Source: Streptomyces sp. Edi2
Lineage (GTDB): Bacteria; Actinomycetota; Actinomycetes; Streptomycetales; Streptomycetaceae
Assembly: GCF_040253635.1 (NCBI RefSeq)
Contig: NZ_JBEJGX010000003.1
Location: 7,403,501-7,467,500 of the forward strand
DNA length: 64,000 nucleotides
Direction of reading: 5' to 3'
Notes under the pieces: model-generated
Database searches by the model: none
What the model saw: the letters and a program-made list of their open reading frames with translations, nothing else
What the model was told of the DNA's origin: nothing
Made by a program: the position numbers and the translations under genes
Shown: piece by piece, positions 54,434-61,437 of the stretch
Layout: each line of letters begins with the position of its first letter
How positions within the stretch are numbered: the stretch's first letter is position 1

Positions 54434-55906
54434 TCAGTCCTCGCGCAGCTCGCGGACCCTGGCCTCGACGCGCGCGCCGTAATCCGGGTCGGCGGCGTGG
54501 AAGTGAGCGAGGTTCTTCTCGATCACGTCGTCGCGGCTGACCTGGGAGAGGCCGCCGGCGATGTTGTCGATCAGACGGGTCTTCTCGTCCTTCGACATGA
54601 GGCGGTAGAGCTCACCGGCCTGGAAGAAGTCGTCGTCCTTGGTGTGCGCCGGGGCCTCGTGGGTGCCGGTGTGGCCGGAGACGGCGAGCGGGGCGGAGAG
54701 TGCCTGGTCCGTCTGGACGGGGCCGCCGTAGGAGTTCGGCTCGTAGTTCTTGGCGTGCCGGTCGTAGCGGTGGGTGGCCATCAGGCCGTCCCGGCCGTAG
54801 TTGTGGGCCTCGGTCGCCTTGGGGGCGTTCACCGGCAGCTGGGTGTGGTTGACGCCCAGACGGTAGCGGTGCGCGTCGGCGTAGGCGAAGAGCCGCCCCT
54901 GGAGCATCTTGTCCGGGGACGGGCCGATGCCGGGCACGAAGTTGTTCGGGGAGAAGGCCGACTGCTCGACCTCGGCGAAGACGTTGTCGGGGTTGCGGTC
55001 CAGGACCAGGCGGCCCACCCGCTGCAGTGGGTAGTCGCGGTGCGGCCACACCTTCGTCAGGTCGAACGGGTTGAAGCGGTAGTCCGCCGCCTCGGCCGCC
55101 GGCATGATCTGCACGTACAGCGTCCAGGAGGGGTAGACGCCCCGCTCGATGGACTGCAGCAGATCGGTCTGGTGGCTGTTCGGGTCCTTGCCGGACAGCT
55201 CGGCGCCCTGCTCGGCGTCCAGGCAGCGGATGCCCTGGTTGGTCTTGAAGTGGTACTTGACGAAGAAGGCCTCGCCCTCGGTGTTCGTCCACTGGTAGGT
55301 GTGCGAGCCGTAGCCGTTCATATGGCGGTAGGAGGCCGGGATGCCGCGGTCGCCCATCAGCCAGGTGACCTGGTGGGTCGCCTCGGGGGAGTGCGCCCAG
55401 AAGTCCCAGACGTTGTCCGGCTCCTGCTTGCCCGTGAAGGGGTCGCGCTTCTGGGAGTGGATGAAGTCGGGGAACTTGATCGGGTCCTTGATGAAGAACA
55501 CCGGGGTGTTGTTGCCGACGAGGTCGTAATTGCCCTCTTCGGTATAGAACTTCAGGGCGAAGCCACGCGGGTCACGGGCCGCGTCCGGGCCGCCGAGGCT
55601 GTCGGCGACGGTCGAGAAGCGGATGAAGGTCTCGGTGCGCTTGCCGACGGCGTTGAGGAAGTCCGCGCGGGTGAAGCCCGTGACGTCGTCGGTCACCTCG
55701 AAGTAGCCGTACGCGCCGGAGCCACGGGCATGCACGACGCGCTCCGGGATGCGCTCGCGGTTGAAGCGGGCGAGCTTCTCCAGCAGGTGCTGGTCCTGGA
55801 GGACGATCGGGCCGCCGGCGCCTGCGGTGGCGGAGTTCTGGTTGTCGGCGACGGGGGCGCCAGCCTCCGTAGTGAGAAAGCGCGCCGTCAGCGTGGGCTT
55901 CGACAT
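54434..55906 (-). CDS. katA: Monofunctional heme catalase
   Basis: Predicted 490-residue small-subunit catalase. The distal His is in [16 protein letters not shown] (about residue 56), the catalytic Asn in VGNNTPVFF (about 129), and the proximal heme-binding Tyr in [14 protein letters not shown] (about 335). It disproportionates hydrogen peroxide. GGAAGG is 7 bases before ATG. The promoter shares a perfect operator with the urate genes 2.9 kb away, which fits removal of peroxide made by uricase and xanthine oxidation. It lies directly upstream of the converging hairpin and follows glxR and hyi on the same strand. Confidence 0.95.
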
Positions 55907-55952: not shown

Positions 55953-55993
55953 AGCGTAAGAAGCGCTACGACCAAACGTCAACAGTTTGTTGA
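55953..55993 (-). promoter_or_regulatory. Catalase promoter with operator TCAACA-N3-TGTTGA
   Basis: On the minus strand, -35 TTGACG (55982-55977) and -10 TACGCT (55958-55953) are 18 bases apart. The perfect palindrome TCAACA-GTT-TGTTGA at 55979-55993 overlaps the -35 box, so a bound repressor would block RNA polymerase. The same arrangement precedes uraD. Confidence 0.75.
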
Positions 55994-56178
55994 AACAAGC
56001 TGAGAGGTGTCCGGGGGTGTTCCGGGCGGCGGTCACGCCTGGGCGCGACAGGACAAGTGTCGGCGCGGCCGCCGCCCGGAAGCCGGAGGGGACTTGCTGA
56101 AGGTCCCGTGGGAGGGGGCCGGAACGAGGCCCCCTGGGCGCACTCGTGCACGGGGCCCGGGTCCGTGCCGCCAAGGGC

Positions 56179-57075
56179 TCAGTGCGTGGTGGCGTGCCCG
56201 GAGAGCCGTTCGACGCCGCGGAGGAGGGCGGAGTGGTCGAGGCCGCCGTCGCCCTGGGCGCGCAGCGAGGCGACGAGGGAGGCGACGAGGGTGCCGACGG
56301 GCAGGGCGGCGCCGACCGTGCGGGCGGCGTCGGTGACGATGCCCATGTCCTTGTGGTGGAGGTCGATGCGGAAGCCGGGGCGGAAGTCGCGGTCCTTGAA
56401 GTTGTCCTTCTTGCGGGCCAGGACGGTGGAGCCGGCCAGGCCGCCGCCCAGGACGTCGAGGGCCGCGGTGAGGTCGACGCCGGACTTCTCGAGGAAGACG
56501 ACGGCTTCGGCGCAGGCCTGGATGTTGATGGCGACGATCAGCTGGTTGGCGGCCTTGACGGTCTGGCCGGCGCCGTGGGGTCCGCAGTGGACGATGGTCT
56601 TGCCGAGGGCTTCGAACAGGGGACGGGCGGCGTCGAAGTCGGCCCGGTCGCCGCCGGTCATGATGGACAGGACGGCTTCGACGGCGCCCGCCTCGCCGCC
56701 CGAGACGGGGGCGTCCAGCACGCGGATGCCCTTGTCGGCGGCGGCGTGTGCCAGGTCGATGGAGGTCTGCGGGGTGATCGAGGACATGTCGATCAGCAGG
56801 GCGCCGCGCCGGGCGTTTTCCAGGATGCCGTCGGGGCCGTAGGCGATGGCTTCGACCTGGGGGGAGGCCGGGACCATGGTGATGATGACGTCGGCGTCGG
56901 TGACGGCTTCGGCCAGGGAGGCGGCGGCGGTGCCGCCGGCCGCCGCGAGGCGCTGGAGCTTGTCGGCTTCAAGCGTGTAGCCGGTGACCTGGTAGCCGGC
57001 CTTGATCAGGTTTTCGGCCATGGGGGAGCCCATGATGCCGAGACCGATCCACGCGATCTTGGGCAGGTTGCTCAT
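56179..57075 (-). CDS. glxR: 2-hydroxy-3-oxopropionate (tartronate semialdehyde) reductase
   Basis: Predicted 298-residue beta-hydroxyacid dehydrogenase. The N-terminal NAD(P) loop IGLGIMGSPMAENL (about residue 10), the substrate-binding DAPVSGGEAGA (about 118) and catalytic Lys in GQTVKAANQ (about 172) are intact. It reduces tartronate semialdehyde to glycerate in glyoxylate assimilation from allantoin. It starts 40 bp after hyi on the same strand, so the two form an operon. No glyoxylate carboligase gene is seen in the window. Confidence 0.92.
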   Translation of the reverse strand: MSNLPKIAWIGLGIMGSPMAENLIKAGYQVTGYTLEADKLQRLAAAGGTAAASLAEAVTDADVIITMVPASPQVEAIAYGPDGILENARRGALLIDMSSITPQTSIDLAHAAADKGIRVLDAPVSGGEAGAVEAVLSIMTGGDRADFDAARPLFEALGKTIVHCGPHGAGQTVKAANQLIVAINIQACAEAVVFLEKSGVDLTAALDVLGGGLAGSTVLARKKDNFKDRDFRPGFRIDLHHKDMGIVTDAARTVGAALPVGTLVASLVASLRAQGDGGLDHSALLRGVERLSGHATTH

Positions 57076-57115
57076 CGGGGTGCCTCTTTCACGGTTTTCG
57101 CAGTGCGGGAAGTCG

Positions 57116-57958
57116 TCAGGGGCGGGCCGCGCGCAGCGGGGCGGGGAGCCAGGCGAAGGCGCTCGCGCTCGGTCCGTCGCCGGGCTTGTACTCCAGGCCG
57201 GTCCAGCCCTGGTAGCCGGCCTTCTCGAGGCGGCCGAGCAGGGCGGTGAAGTCGAGGTCGCCGGTGCCGGGGGCACCGCGGCCGGGGTTGTCGGCGATCT
57301 GTACGTGGGCGGTCCTGTCGGTGTAGCGGTCGATGACCTCGTCCAGGTCCTCGCCGTTCATCGACAGGTGGTAGAGGTCCATCAGGAAGCGGGTGTTGTC
57401 CAGCCCGGTGGCCGCGTTCACCGCGTCCACCACCTCGATGGCCTTCGGTGCGCTGACGATCGGGCAGTTCGGCGACTCCGGTGCGTTCAGGGCCTCGATC
57501 AGCACCGTCCCGCCCACCTCCGCGACCGCCCGCGCGGTGAACGCCAGGTTCTCCAGCGCCAGCGCGTCCTGTTCCGCCGCGGAGACCCCCGGGACCCGGT
57601 TGCCGTACAGGGCGTTGAAGGCCGTGCAGCCCAGCGAGCGGCCGAACTCCACCGCCACCGGCACGTTCGCCCGGAACTTCTCCGACTCCTCGCCCGGGAC
57701 CGACAGGGCTCCGCGGTCCGGGCCCGGCAGCTGCCCGGCGTAGAAGTTCAGCCCCACCAGCCGCGTCCCCGCATCCGTCAGCGCGGTGCGCAGCGCCGCC
57801 AGCTCCGCCTGCTCGGGCACCGGGGCGTCCACCCACGGCCACCACAGCTCCACCGCCGTGAAGCCCGCTGCCCGCGCGGCCGCCGGCCGCTCCAGCAAGG
57901 GAAGCTCGGTGAACAGGATCGACAGATTGACGTTGAAGCGCGTGTCCGTGAAACCCAT
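57116..57958 (-). CDS. hyi: Hydroxypyruvate isomerase
   Basis: Predicted 280-residue TIM-barrel isomerase of the AP-endonuclease-2 fold. NVNLSILFTELPLLERP begins the barrel; GTVLIEALN (about 148), MDLYHLSMNGED (about 188) and GLEYKPGDG near the end supply the metal-binding Glu and His residues. It interconverts hydroxypyruvate and tartronate semialdehyde. ATG 57958 has AGGGAG upstream. It is the first gene of the hyi-glxR operon and is divergent from the small gene at 58096. Confidence 0.92.
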   Translation of the reverse strand: MGFTDTRFNVNLSILFTELPLLERPAAARAAGFTAVELWWPWVDAPVPEQAELAALRTALTDAGTRLVGLNFYAGQLPGPDRGALSVPGEESEKFRANVPVAVEFGRSLGCTAFNALYGNRVPGVSAAEQDALALENLAFTARAVAEVGGTVLIEALNAPESPNCPIVSAPKAIEVVDAVNAATGLDNTRFLMDLYHLSMNGEDLDEVIDRYTDRTAHVQIADNPGRGAPGTGDLDFTALLGRLEKAGYQGWTGLEYKPGDGPSASAFAWLPAPLRAARP

Positions 57959-57974
57959 CAGGCCCGGCGCTCCC

Positions 57975-57989
57975 TTCCGGATAGTGGAA
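57975..57989. promoter_or_regulatory. TTCC-N7-GGAA inverted repeat before hyi
   Basis: A short dyad 17 bases upstream of the hyi ATG in an AT-richer stretch (57970-58015) that also holds further GGAAC/GGAAG half-sites at 57986 and 58007. It differs from the operator at catalase and uraD. It is a candidate site only. Confidence 0.35.
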
Positions 57990-58095
57990 CTGTTTTTCTG
58001 CTTATTGGAAGACTGCCTGGCGGGTTCAAAGGCTGTCAAGGGGGCTCCGGGGCAATTTCTGGTGGCCGGGCGCCACCGCGCGTAGGTTGAGCGGC

Positions 58096-58365
58096 GTGCG
58101 ATTGAGAGTGGAGTTCACGACGGAACCGTTCGACCTGGACGAGGCGCCGGCGCATGCGGTGGTGGCGCGGGACGTCGTCACGGGCGCCGAGCTGGACGCC
58201 GTCGATGTCGGCCCCTTCGGCAATACGGCGGAGGGCGACGCCGACCAGGTGCTCGGCGCCGTGGCCGATCTGCTGCGGGAGTCGCTGCAGGCGGGCGCCA
58301 CCCGGGTCTCCCTGCAGGTCAATGTGATCCGGGACGCCGGGCAGGGTGCGGGGGAGGCGACGTGA
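58096..58365 (+). CDS. Small protein of unknown function
   Basis: Predicted 89-residue soluble protein (from GTG 58096; TTG 58087 is possible). It has a beta-rich start (RLRVEFTTEPFDL), a run of acidic residues, and a final ATRVSLQVNVI strand, suggesting a small alpha/beta fold. I recognise no family. Its stop overlaps the following HTH gene by four bases (GTGA), so the two are translationally coupled and may work together as sensor and DNA-binding partner. Confidence 0.65.
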   Translation: MRLRVEFTTEPFDLDEAPAHAVVARDVVTGAELDAVDVGPFGNTAEGDADQVLGAVADLLRESLQAGATRVSLQVNVIRDAGQGAGEAT

Positions 58366-58760
58366 CGGAGCCCGCCGACCACCCGTTCGTCCAGGCGGTC
58401 AAGCCGCTGGTTGACGCGATGGGCGGACAGATGATCGCGCCGGACCAGGCGCAGGGTGACGATGTCGTGCTGACCTGGGAGGGGCGGGAACGGGTGGCCG
58501 TACGGCTCCCGCATCTGTCGGACTCGCTCGACCACATCCTCGCCGAGCTCCAGCGCCGGCACGGCATGCCGCTCGCGGAGCTGGACCGTAAGACCAAGCA
58601 GTCGGTGGTGCGGATCCTGGAGTCCCGCGGGGCCTTCTCGGTCCGGCACGGCGTCGAGACGGTCGCCGGCGCCCTCGGGGTCAGTCGGTTCACCGTGTAC
58701 AACTACCTCAATCGCGAGAATGCGGCGAAGGACGGGAGCGCGCAGGTGGAAGGCTCGTAG
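58362..58760 (+). CDS. YheO/DauR-type helix-turn-helix regulator, short form
   Basis: Predicted 132-residue regulator. The C-terminal half (residues 80-120, VVRILESRGAFSVRHGVETVAG then LGVSRFTVYNYLN) is a clear YheO/DauR-type HTH domain. YheO and DauR proteins are usually about 220 residues with an N-terminal PAS-like sensor. Here the N terminus is shorter and unlike PAS, so sensing may lie in the coupled upstream protein. It sits between hyi and the urate genes and is a candidate regulator of either operon. Confidence 0.75.
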   Translation: MTEPADHPFVQAVKPLVDAMGGQMIAPDQAQGDDVVLTWEGRERVAVRLPHLSDSLDHILAELQRRHGMPLAELDRKTKQSVVRILESRGAFSVRHGVETVAGALGVSRFTVYNYLNRENAAKDGSAQVEGS

Positions 58761-58810
58761 GCGGCCCGGGGCGGCCCGGGGCGGCCCGCGGTGGCCCGGG
58801 GCGGCGCCGG
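58761..58810. repeat. Five 10-bp tandem repeats
   Basis: GCGGCCCGGG-type units in exact 10-bp register, the last degenerate, directly after the stop of the HTH gene. Probably replication slippage. Confidence 0.8.
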
Positions 58811-58872
58811 ACGGCTCCCCGGGGAAGCGGCTGCCCCCGTCACCCGGCCGGTGGCTCGGCGTCGCCGACTTT

Positions 58873-58913
58873 TCAACAAAGTGTTGACGTGTCGTTGCCG
58901 GGGGTCTTAGCTG
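58873..58913 (+). promoter_or_regulatory. Urate-operon promoter with operator TCAACA-N3-TGTTGA
   Basis: The palindrome TCAACA-AAG-TGTTGA at 58873-58887 overlaps -35 TTGACG (58884-58889). The -10 TAGCTG follows after 18 bases. Operator arms, spacer length, -35 sequence and -35/-10 spacing are the same as at the catalase promoter, so the same repressor probably acts at both. Confidence 0.8.
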
Positions 58914-58960: not shown

Positions 58961-59512
58961 GTGTCTTCGCGTTCACCACGCTCGACGGGGGACACCCGCG
59001 AGCCCACGCCGGGGCTCACCCGGTTCAACACCGCCGACGACGGTACGGCCCTGGCCGCACTGCACGAGGTATGTGCCAGCCGGGCATGGGGGAGCAAGCT
59101 CCTTGCGCAGCGTCCCTACGCCACCGCCGATGCCCTGTACGCCGCGAGCGACGCCGCCATGGCCGAGCTGAGCGACGGGGACCTGGCCGAGGCGATGGCC
59201 GGGCACCCGCCGATCGGCCGGCCGAAGCCGGGCGACCCCACCTCGCGCCGCGAGCAGAGCGGGATGGCCGGCGCCTCCGACGCGCTCAAGGCCGACATGC
59301 TCGAACTCAACCTGGCCTACCAGGAGAAGTTCGGGCACGTCTTCCTGATCTGCGCCTCCGGCCGGACCGGGGAGCAGATGCGGGACGCCGTTCGTCACCG
59401 GATCGACAACACGCCGGAACAGGAACGCGAGATCGTTCGTGCGGAACTCGGCAAGATCAACCGCATCCGCCTGACCCGTATCGCCGAGCACGCAGAAGGA
59501 GACGCAGCATGA
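58961..59512 (+). CDS. uraD: 2-oxo-4-hydroxy-4-carboxy-5-ureidoimidazoline (OHCU) decarboxylase
   Basis: Predicted 183-residue enzyme that converts OHCU to S-allantoin, the last step of urate oxidation. Family motifs: GHPPIGRP (about residue 86, catalytic His), SRREQSGM (about 100, catalytic Glu) and FLICASGRTGEQM (about 128). GTG 58961 has GGAGG 6 bases upstream. The in-frame GTG 58889 lies inside the -35 box, so it is excluded. The stop overlaps uraH by four bases (ATGA). Confidence 0.93.
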   Translation: MSSRSPRSTGDTREPTPGLTRFNTADDGTALAALHEVCASRAWGSKLLAQRPYATADALYAASDAAMAELSDGDLAEAMAGHPPIGRPKPGDPTSRREQSGMAGASDALKADMLELNLAYQEKFGHVFLICASGRTGEQMRDAVRHRIDNTPEQEREIVRAELGKINRIRLTRIAEHAEGDAA

Positions 59513-59934
59513 GCAGCGAGACGGCTGCCCGGACGTCGGTGTCCACGCACATCCTGGACACCAGCGTGGGCCGCCCCGCGGAGGGCGTCGCCCTCACGCT
59601 CGCGGTGCGCTCCGGCCGCGACGGCGCCTGGACCGCCCACGGCGCGTCCACGACCGATGCGGACGGACGCTGCAAGGACCTGCCGGCCCTGCCGGAAGGC
59701 ACCACCCATGTGCGCCTCGACTTCGCCGTCGAGGAGTACTTCGTCTCTCCCCAGCACCGCGCACACCACAAGGCAACCCAGCAAGCCGAGGAACAGCAGG
59801 ACGCCCCCCGCGTAAGGGACAGCGGAGCTTTCTTCCCGGAGGTGGCGATCACCTTTGCCGTCACGCCGGGCGAGCACTATCACGTACCGCTGCTGCTCAA
59901 CCCGTTCGGCTACTCCGTATACCGAGGGAGCTAG
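59509..59934 (+). CDS. uraH: 5-hydroxyisourate hydrolase (transthyretin-like)
   Basis: Predicted 141-residue hydrolase converting 5-hydroxyisourate to OHCU. Signature STHILDTSVGRPAEGV near the N terminus and the C-terminal YRGS are both present. Most family members are 110-120 residues. The extra length is a Gln/Glu-rich insertion around residues 86-106 (KATQQAEEQQDAPR) between the active-site strands, probably a surface loop. ATGA overlap with uraD and 8-bp spacing to uricase indicate one operon. Confidence 0.93.
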   Translation: MSSETAARTSVSTHILDTSVGRPAEGVALTLAVRSGRDGAWTAHGASTTDADGRCKDLPALPEGTTHVRLDFAVEEYFVSPQHRAHHKATQQAEEQQDAPRVRDSGAFFPEVAITFAVTPGEHYHVPLLLNPFGYSVYRGS

Positions 59935-59941
59935 CACCGAC

Positions 59942-60913
59942 ATGACTGCCCAATCCCGCCCGGCCCGCGCTGCCGATTCCCGCCCGGCCCGCCCGGTGAT
60001 TCTCGGCCAGAACCAGTACGGCAAAGCGGAGAACCGCGTCGTCAAGATCACCCGCGACGGCGACACGCACCACATCAAGGACCTGAACGTCTCGGTCGCG
60101 CTCTCCGGCGACCTGGAAGAGGTCCACCTCTCCGGCTCCAACGCCCACTGCCTGCCCACCGACACGACCAGGAACACCGTGTACGCCTTCGCCAAGGAGC
60201 ACGGGATCGAGTCGGCCGAGCAGTTCGGCATCCACCTGGCCCGGCACTTCGTCACCAGCCAGGAGCCGATCCACCGGGCCCGCATCCGGATCGAGGAGTA
60301 CGCCTGGGAGCGGATCGCCCCCTCCGACGCCAACTCCCGCTTCATCGGCGCCGACGAGGTCCAGCACTCCTTCGTCCGCAAGGGCCAGGAGACCCGCCTG
60401 ACCGAGATCACCTACGACGGTGAGCGGTGGCAGGTCATCTCCGGCCTGAAGGACCTGGTCGTGATGAACTCCACCAACTCGGAGTTCTGGGGCTACATCA
60501 AGGACAAGTACACGACCCTCAAGGAGGCCTACGACCGCATCCTGGCCACCGAGGTGTCCGGCCGCTGGCGGTTCAACTGGACCGACGACGAGCAGCGGAT
60601 GCCGAACTGGGAGCGTTCGTACGAGCAGGTCAAGAAGCACATGCTGCAGGCGTTCGCGGAGACCTACAGCCTCTCGCTCCAGCAGACGCTGTACCAAATG
60701 GGAGCGCGTGTGATCAACAACCGTTCGGAGGTCGACGAGATCCGCTTCTCGCTCCCGAACAAGCACCACTTCCTGGTGGATCTCGAGCCGTTCGGGCTCA
60801 AGAACGACAACGAGGTGTACTACGCGGCCGACCGCCCGTACGGCCTGATCGAAGCCACAGTTCTGCGCGACGGTGTCGAGCCCGAGATCCCGGTGGATCT
60901 GACGAACCTCTGA
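59942..60913 (+). CDS. pucL: Urate oxidase (uricase, cofactor-free)
   Basis: Predicted 323-residue uricase that oxidises urate with O2 to 5-hydroxyisourate and hydrogen peroxide. The catalytic Lys (NQYGKAENRVVK, about residue 27) and Thr (CLPTDTTRNTVY, about 77) are present, as are FIGADEVQHSF and the late LPNKHHFLVDL His (about 281). The N-terminal 20 residues are Ala/Arg/Pro-rich. No N-terminal OHCU decarboxylase fusion is present; the decarboxylase is a separate gene. A strong terminator follows. Confidence 0.95.
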   Translation: MTAQSRPARAADSRPARPVILGQNQYGKAENRVVKITRDGDTHHIKDLNVSVALSGDLEEVHLSGSNAHCLPTDTTRNTVYAFAKEHGIESAEQFGIHLARHFVTSQEPIHRARIRIEEYAWERIAPSDANSRFIGADEVQHSFVRKGQETRLTEITYDGERWQVISGLKDLVVMNSTNSEFWGYIKDKYTTLKEAYDRILATEVSGRWRFNWTDDEQRMPNWERSYEQVKKHMLQAFAETYSLSLQQTLYQMGARVINNRSEVDEIRFSLPNKHHFLVDLEPFGLKNDNEVYYAADRPYGLIEATVLRDGVEPEIPVDLTNL

Positions 60914-60998: not shown

Positions 60999-61437
60999 AT
61001 GGCACAGCACACGCACACCCCGCACCACCTGGCGCCACCGGTCCACCCGGTGGACGAGAAGCCGGCTGCCAAGCGGCTCGTCCCGGCCGCGCTCCAGCAC
61101 ATGGCCGATGCCGGTCCTCGGCGGCGCGGGCATCGTGCTGTTCGGGTCGATCGCGGTCAGCGGCATCCGTACGCTCGCCGAGGCCGGTCTCGACGAGAGC
61201 TCGCACATCGTCCTGGTGGCCGTCTCGCTCGGCTCCGGCCTCGTCCCGCTCGCCGCACCGGCCTTCTACGACGACTTTCCGGCCTGGGCACAGACCGTGC
61301 TCGGCTCGGGGATCAGCGCCGGCGCCCTGGTCGCGGTGCTGCTCAACCTGTTCTTCCCTCACCTCGGCACCCGGAGCACCCCACGGGCAGCGGCACTGTC
61401 AGCCGCCTCGCCCGGCTCCGGCACTCAAATCCCGTAG
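60999..61437 (+). pseudogene. Remnant of an NCS2 purine/xanthine permease
   Basis: The N-terminal 36 codons (from ATG 60999, ending RLVPAALQHM) match the start of NCS2 uracil/xanthine permeases, including the LQH motif. The reading frame then jumps to a second frame encoding the C-terminal permease part (PVLGGAGIVLFGSIAVSGIRT, in part, then three membrane segments to 61437). About 300 residues in the middle are missing and the junction, near 61100, shifts the frame. This is a broken transporter gene between uricase and the deaminase. Sequencing error alone could not remove this much. Confidence 0.85.

Follow-up and report, generated by a model that had tools for sequence, protein, structure and literature searches.

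A candidate two-part repressor and its shared operator at the urate oxidation and catalase promoters of Streptomyces sp. Edi2

Control of uricase or urate-linked genes is an established role of the MarR-family proteins HucR and PecS and of PucR, which belong to protein families other than HTH_22, the family of the small protein considered here as a regulator of urate oxidation in Streptomyces sp. Edi2. The gene for this protein lies in a 64,000-nucleotide stretch of the genome (hereafter the window), between two copies of a perfect palindrome, TCAACA-N3-TGTTGA (Op1), one at the promoter of a catalase gene and the other at that of the urate operon uraD-hiuH-uox. Closest in pathway is the AllR regulon of S. 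coelicolor, for which Navone and colleagues in 2015 reportedly described a conserved palindrome and allB and aceB as targets, with hyi presumably another target; an IclR gene lies by aceB and allB here as well, whereas Op1 follows the HTH_22 gene rather than AllR and is lacking at hyi. A second S. coelicolor system, HbpS-SenS-SenR, reportedly influences the urate operon SCO6209-SCO6211, which it links to oxidative stress, but SenR is a response regulator with a predicted GC-rich site, unlike Op1, and the urate promoter, in the accessible part of that report, is not among the five shifted (PMC4991794).

By domain content the nearest described proteins are the YheO, DauR and Cj1387 regulators, which have the HTH_22 domain (PF13309) in common with the window protein, and YheO-type genes with the same recognition helix have the same operator. 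They carry a PAS_6 sensor, in whose place the window system has a PF01910 protein, and their targets are RidA or amino acid genes rather than urate genes. This partner matches the PF01910 proteins YqgV/DUF77, MTH1187, TM0486 and YkoF in sequence and fold, but here it is encoded with, or fused to, a DNA-binding domain. Among titles and abstract openings, retrieved by searches in which neither HTH_22 nor the operator letters were themselves terms, we found neither an HTH_22-type regulator of urate genes nor any reference to Op1, which is no claim about all that is in print, and the accessible parts of PMC10717218 and PMC4519771 yielded no operator. Our findings make it probable that Op1 is the operator of a two-part repressor, made up of the HTH_22 protein and its PF01910 partner, that is encoded between the two sites. 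The operators, their conservation, their co-occurrence with HTH_22 and the fusion of the two partners come from sequence comparison, and from these we infer binding, dimer formation, repression and a ligand.

Op1 in the window, the genome and the genus

The two copies of Op1 and the promoter elements that they overlap are as follows.

55979-55993, minus strand: Op1 of the catalase promoter, TCAACAAACTGTTGA, a perfect TCAACA-N3-TGTTGA, letters checked
55977-55982, minus strand: hexamer TTGACG overlapping the catalase Op1, putative -35
55953-55958, minus strand: -10-like hexamer TACGCT, 18 bases from the catalase -35, putative
58873-58887, plus strand: Op1 of the urate operon promoter, TCAACAAAGTGTTGA, a perfect TCAACA-N3-TGTTGA, letters checked
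58884-58889, plus strand: hexamer TTGACG overlapping the urate operon Op1, putative -35
58908-58913, plus strand: -10-like hexamer TAGCTG, 18 bases from the urate operon -35, putative

The letters are exact at both promoters and the right half-site of each copy runs into TTGACG, as an earlier reading of the DNA alone (the sequence-only reading) had described. That reading also gave the two promoters an identical 18-base spacing between -35 and -10, which is present at both, although a 17-base spacing (to TTACGC at catalase and TTAGCT at the urate operon) is equally possible. Its statement that the window holds no other intergenic copy is right for exact copies, of which our scan found two (and none in 300 Markov resamplings of the window). 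With up to two mismatches allowed, four sites appear in the window against 0.27 expected, a number reached in 0 of 100 shuffles. Across 183 distinct TGTTGAC contexts fetched, the hexamer is TTGACG in 157 and TTGACA in 15, and TANNNT lies 16-18 bases on in 33%, compared with 2% in shuffles; two in three contexts have no TANNNT at that distance. This excess lends independent support to the reading of Op1 sites as promoter elements. The -35 boxes within Op1 belong to near-consensus promoters, so Op1 is most simply read as a site where polymerase is blocked and transcription repressed. The opposite sign of control, in which the HTH_22 protein binds Op1 but activates, is in our judgment unlikely: class II activators can work from sites at the -35, yet with a -35 this near to consensus no activator seems needed. 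In Campylobacter jejuni, moreover, one study reports that loss of the YheO-type cj1387c raised the adjacent protein (PMC4519771).

The 9.8-Mb genome contains three exact Op1 copies, all within 17 kb, and 13 more places with one mismatch, while the reversed exact pattern has 0 matches. The third exact copy (C3:7476346-7476360; L016 9347) is upstream of the allantoinase gene allB, 8.8 kb past the window end, and a degenerate copy, TCAACAAACCATTGA (10/12), lies over a -35-like TTGA at the promoter of the malate synthase gene aceB (L016:2128-3813, minus strand), also past the window end. The scan of related genomes found exact Op1 in 98 of 101 Streptomyces, at one to five copies each, against 4 of 101 for the reversed control. 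Individual promoters were read in two sets, the best-scoring loci of the Streptomyces search and the named-genome loci L359-L388; here and below, locus counts refer to the best 30 of about 100 genomes unless stated otherwise. All readable uraD promoters have a perfect Op1 core (18/18 and 21/21), as do the catalase promoters in 18/18 and 13/15, the two misses being L359 and L361 at 10/12 each. The motif is therefore kept at the orthologous promoters (uraD 39/39, catalase 31/33), which bears out the earlier proposal of one operator on two promoters and, at the level of comparison, argues for the predicted joint control of catalase and urate oxidation. The lack of a perfect core in L359 and L361 hints that the catalase gene may have come under this control inside the genus Streptomyces, a suggestion that draws on these two loci.

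The Op1 core is complete in 0/48 hyi promoters (30 and 18 read), one of which, in the set of 18, reaches 11/12. Op1 reaches at least 11/12 in 27 of 30 allB loci (L097-L126; L103, L104 and L123 are below 10) and in 26 of 30 allR loci, and at least 10/12 in 28 of 30 aceB loci, two of which reach 11; with eight permuted half-sites, 11/12 was reached in 0/30 allB and 0/30 aceB loci. The regulon is wider than the sequence-only reading had it, extending to allB and aceB and, in several other Streptomyces, to a cyclophilin-like gene. In L030, L031, L033, L045, L046, L048 and L052 a gene for 122-131 amino acids has its start codon about 10 bases after a perfect Op1, which lies near position 1501; the one of these seven scanned, that of L033, is cyclophilin-like (PF04126), and this gene is a probable extra member of the regulon. 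A single exact copy just before ureA (urease gamma) in G018 (L040 1501-1515) may be chance, and the exact copies TCAACAGCCTGTTGA at L029 and L049 fall inside long open frames. In one comparison made in S. coelicolor, expression of SCO6209 (OHCU decarboxylase) increases along with that of SCO6247 and SCO6248 (log2 3.11, 2.92 and 2.43), while we did not find the catalase SCO6204 in the accessible text (PMC6629963); the published expression data, as far as they were available, fit shared control without proving it.

HTH_22 and AllR as candidate readers of Op1

The proposed regulator and its partner are encoded between the two sites.

58087-58365, plus strand: thiBP, PF01910 thiamine-binding-like protein, proposed sensor subunit (PF01910 24.1 bits, cut-off 24.9)
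58362-58760, plus strand: HTH_22 (YheO-type) protein, 132 amino acids, proposed Op1-binding regulator (PF13309 7.3e-20, over cut-off)

The stop codon of thiBP overlaps the start of the HTH_22 gene by four bases; its own start is TTG as listed, with GTG at 58096 likelier. In Streptomyces, Op1 goes with an intact copy of the HTH_22 gene. Among 138 genomes (101 in a genus set and 44 in a class set, less 7 in both; Op1 was searched as a 15-mer in the former and a 16-mer in the latter), exact Op1 is present in 132/132 with intact HTH_22 and in 0/6 without it (Fisher p 1e-10, uncorrected for descent; p values are overstated because genomes share descent). The ortholog is intact in 98/101 of the genus set, where G043 and G050 have no match and the G010 copy is split in two, with each piece in its own frame; these are the same three genomes without exact Op1, and G010 has an 11/12 copy at the urate operon. 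In the class set, ortholog and Op1 occur in 41/44 Streptomyces, with neither in G228, G272 and G348, of which G272 and G348 have only weak HTH_22 matches (E about 4e-11). The Edi2 genome has one HTH_22 match, and a perfect core is close by in 16 of 20 further, hand-picked Streptomyces HTH_22 loci.

The association extends beyond the genus. An ortholog at E<=1e-34 is found in 5 of 349 other class genomes (G140, G384, G385, G423 and G434; two of these at 2.1e-35 and 3.6e-35, the next match being 7e-18), and the 15-base core lies beside HTH_22 at the urate operon in 5/5, or 4/5 by the 16-mer. Nine more have weaker matches (1e-8 to 1e-18), with the 16-mer somewhere in three (G346, G377 and G483). 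In a named-genome alignment scan of the best 80 loci of 569 relatives, the gene end was readable in 74, and 54 of these have a perfect core within 420 bp after the HTH_22 gene, their genera being Nocardioides, Kribbella, Nocardia, Modestobacter, Saccharopolyspora, Actinopolyspora, Kitasatospora, Yinghuangia, Streptomyces and others. Where uraD is displaced or divergent, Op1 goes with uraD, with a perfect core at L318, L329, L321, L341 and Tsukamurella L309 and L310, and 11/12 at L322.

A third, unlinked regulator, whether a Fur-type CatR, a MarR-type urate sensor, one of the PucR type or SenR, might read Op1 in place of HTH_22, which would then be a passenger of the urate operon. Our profiling across genomes covered HTH_22 and AllR only, and the physical linkage of HTH_22 and uraD partly builds in their co-occurrence; a SenR-dependent change of SCO6209-SCO6211, lowered in the wild type, has also been reported, but the site predicted before SCO6209 differs from Op1 and this promoter, in the accessible part of the paper, is not among the five shifted (PMC4991794). 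Plasmid urate operons speak against such a regulator, as Op1 is found in two with HTH_22 and before uraD in 0/4 without HTH_22 nearby (9 kb read). The same is true of L383, where a perfect Op1 lies 65 bp before an HTH_22 match on a 3.6 kb contig with no uraD match, and of the Op1-like sites upstream of same-helix YheO-type genes in unrelated settings, described below. We consider this explanation very unlikely.

The remaining candidate is the product of an IclR gene (L016:5837-6751, minus strand), named AllR by its position next to aceB and allB; the protein is below the cut-off of every NCBIfam model matched, that of E. coli AllR included. For BhcR, a relative of AllR, a putative palindrome has been reported, without letters in the part available (PMC11323563). 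As the reader of Op1 it was our first working answer, favored because Op1 sits in the allR-allB gap, and it was dropped after the presence/absence pattern and a second palindrome, TTCC-N7-GGAA (Op2), had been found.

57975-57989, minus strand: Op2 palindrome TTCC-N7-GGAA, TTCCACTATCCGGAA, between hyi and the divergent thiBP, probable AllR site
57996-58010, minus strand: second Op2-like site, TTCCAATAAGCAGAA, its centre 21 bp away from that of the other, putative

That AllR binds Op1 and Op2 alike, with the urate operon and catalase simply part of its regulon, draws support from the Op1 of at least 11/12 at most allR and allB loci and from the position of Op1 beside Op2 at aceB. The E. coli IclR site is also a 15-bp palindrome (PMC8222616). 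The distribution of the genes, however, points elsewhere. At thresholds of E<=1e-70 in the class set and 1e-118 or better for genus-set orthologs (next matches 5e-49), AllR is kept in G010, G043, G228 and G272, which are without an intact HTH_22 copy and exact Op1, whereas HTH_22 and Op1 are kept without an AllR match in G237, in the fragmented G073 (1140 contigs) and, outside Streptomyces, in G423; AllR is also unmatched in G050 and G348, which have neither. The 16-mer is unenriched in AllR-bearing genomes without HTH_22 (9/81, versus 25/263 with neither). In the genomes profiled, Op1 was thus not simply present with AllR and absent without it.

The second palindrome offers AllR a site of its own. 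Aligned hyi promoters contain conserved TTCC-N7-GGAA, usually as two copies 21 bases apart, and no perfect Op1. At aceB, Op1 is followed by Op2 (the Op2 pattern is matched in 29 of 30 loci and a strict form of the Op1 pattern in 23), and in four HTH_22-less genomes the aceB promoter has Op1 at 6-7/12, which is background, with Op2 kept at 7-8/8. In eight IclR-flanking gaps outside Streptomyces, four of them from Nocardia, TTCC is the top of 256 half-sites (61/64, next 53) and Op1 is at background, 5 to 7 of 12. With Op1 and a distinct Op2 on this pathway, two regulators seem to meet there, and AllR probably acts through TTCC-N7-GGAA. We therefore hold it unlikely that AllR reads Op1. AllR may also control the HTH_22 genes, as suggested by the presence of Op2 in the gap from hyi to thiBP here and, in four loci of Nocardia (L321, L322, L324 and L329), in the gap that separates allR from thiBP. 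The sequence-only reading had named three candidate regulators and chosen none; co-occurrence favors its YheO-type HTH protein and tells against its AllR-type IclR.

A proposed sensor and DNA-binding pair

Fusions join the two parts of the proposed repressor. In G140, G384, G423 and G434 a PF01910-like region and HTH_22 form one open frame; a Pfam scan of the fused proteins found both domains in G140, G423 and G434, with PF01910 above its cut-off only in G140 (L247, 41.2 bits, cut-off 24.9), and precomputed annotation gives both domains in 114 of 120 listed homologs (of 1025). An AlphaFold model of the G140 fusion (mean pLDDT 87.8, pTM 0.49) has a ferredoxin-like N-domain that matches 1YQH, 1LXN, 2EKY and 1VK8, with which sequence profiles agree, and a helical C-domain; the pTM indicates that the domains of the model are not fixed to each other. 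In the window protein itself, a Pfam scan found only HTH_22 (PF13309, 71.2 bits, cut-off 29.6) and no PAS_6 (PF08348) in the 132 residues. When solved structures were searched with the sequence of this protein by itself, the four matches were at the level of chance (E 0.7 to 0.97).

The recognition helix of the window protein is SRFTVYNYLNR. We compared helix and upstream DNA in 18 YheO-type loci, namely L256 and 17 hand-chosen from 40 rows listed among 108 matching records, where the YheO-type assignment follows from PAS_6 and HTH_22 found in L256 and, for the plasmid genes, from similarity to L256. An Op1-like site (10-12/12) lies within 500 bases upstream in 6/7 genes with the helix [ST]R[FY][TS][VI]YNYL and in 0/11 with other helices (p 4e-4, with helix classes drawn after the sites were seen and several of the 11 being close pairs). 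The sum for the half-site is 165, whereas 59 permutations of it average 137.3 (sd 4.3) and reach 147 at most. Some of these YheO-type genes, in Variovorax and on a Klebsiella plasmid (L392, L399 and L400), are beside RidA or PLP-enzyme genes and have Op1-like sites upstream, up to perfect.

The mechanism that we propose would proceed as follows. The HTH_22 protein would bind Op1 as a dimer, while its partner of PF01910 fold would act as sensor for a ligand that is probably some intermediate in the breakdown of urate or ureides. Without ligand, the dimer would cover the -35 of the uraD-hiuH-uox operon and, in Streptomyces, also that of catalase, allantoinase and malate synthase; ligand would lift it, so that uricase, which produces hydrogen peroxide, and the peroxide-removing catalase would appear together. 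AllR, as the IclR repressor of the same pathway, would use TTCC-N7-GGAA to control allR, aceB and hyi, with thiBP and HTH_22 as further probable targets.

Several observations weigh against this proposal. A published AllR motif exists, and Op1 of at least 11/12 stands near allR in 26/30 loci, a place in which one would look for an AllR site. Since the genomes share descent and HTH_22 is a linked neighbor of uraD, the two could have been lost in one step; among the six genomes without an intact copy, completeness is only 82% for G050, and G043 is also without an allB ortholog. A perfect core is missing close to HTH_22 in G035, G051, G091 and G018, though these genomes have copies elsewhere, and from the stretch read in 20/74 named loci, 13 of which, L383 among them, have no uraD match and are mainly unclassified or Acidimicrobiia metagenome bins. 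In Rhodococcus jostii (L389) the helix is present, yet yheO has no such site upstream. Finally, SenR is reported to control the S. coelicolor urate operon, and the site predicted for it differs from Op1 (PMC4991794).

More broadly, and at somewhat less than even confidence, this could be a new two-part actinobacterial repressor, with a PF01910 sensor of a purine-ring intermediate and HTH_22 on TTCAACA-N3-TGTTGAA, in which the helix [ST]R[FY]T[VI]YNYL would set the operator for a whole branch of YheO proteins and to which Streptomyces would have recruited catalase. The comparison names two genes, the exact operator and a set of targets for a candidate regulator of urate breakdown from Streptomyces to Nocardia, Kribbella, Nocardioides, Saccharopolyspora and Tsukamurella, and predicts that in Streptomyces peroxide removal is wired to uricase at the level of transcription. 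It also proposes a gene-control role for the PF01910 domain and, within the YheO (HTH_22) family, a rule by which some members would recognize DNA. The overlapping AllR and HTH_22 regulons would be separated, at a boundary that bears on antibiotic production, with hyi presumably in the AllR part.

Genes around the sites

From left to right the locus reads catalase (minus), Op1, glxR-hyi (minus), thiBP and HTH_22 (plus), Op1, and uraD, hiuH and uox (plus).

54434-55906, minus strand: catalase gene, 490 amino acids (HPII model 474.5 bits, below the equivalog cut-off of 1102)
56179-57075, minus strand: glxR, tartronate semialdehyde reductase (TIGR01505 465.6 bits, over cut-off)
57116-57958, minus strand: hyi, hydroxypyruvate isomerase (TIGR03234 295.8 bits, below the cut-off of 353)
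58961-59512, plus strand: uraD, OHCU decarboxylase (TIGR03180 and NF010372 over cut-off)
59509-59934, plus strand: hiuH, hydroxyisourate hydrolase (TIGR02962 99.8 bits, over cut-off)
59942-60913, plus strand: uox, urate oxidase, the hydrogen peroxide producer (TIGR03383 362.4 bits, over cut-off)

The catalase is 97% identical to the product of a gene annotated as catalase in S. angustmyceticus. A 27-kb record of that species (L398, plasmid p3) contains the cluster from catalase to aceB with both Op1 sites and may be a chromosomal fragment, though labelled plasmid; it has two short annotated thiamine pyrophosphate enzyme genes where glyoxylate carboligase might be expected. In the Edi2 genome glyoxylate carboligase is at C3:8715969-8717729, about 1.25 Mb from the cluster, and in a Tsukamurella record it comes after the 2-hydroxy-3-oxopropionate reductase gene. 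Four Nocardia loci (L317, L322, L327 and L328) have two uox copies within 12 kb, one by 8-oxoguanine deaminase and one by HTH_22. In the window, the nucleobase permease gene expected between uox and 8-oxoguanine deaminase is shortened (60999-61437): 109 bases at its start and 334 at its end match the S. angustmyceticus gene of L398, which has 1404 bases, and the middle is gone.

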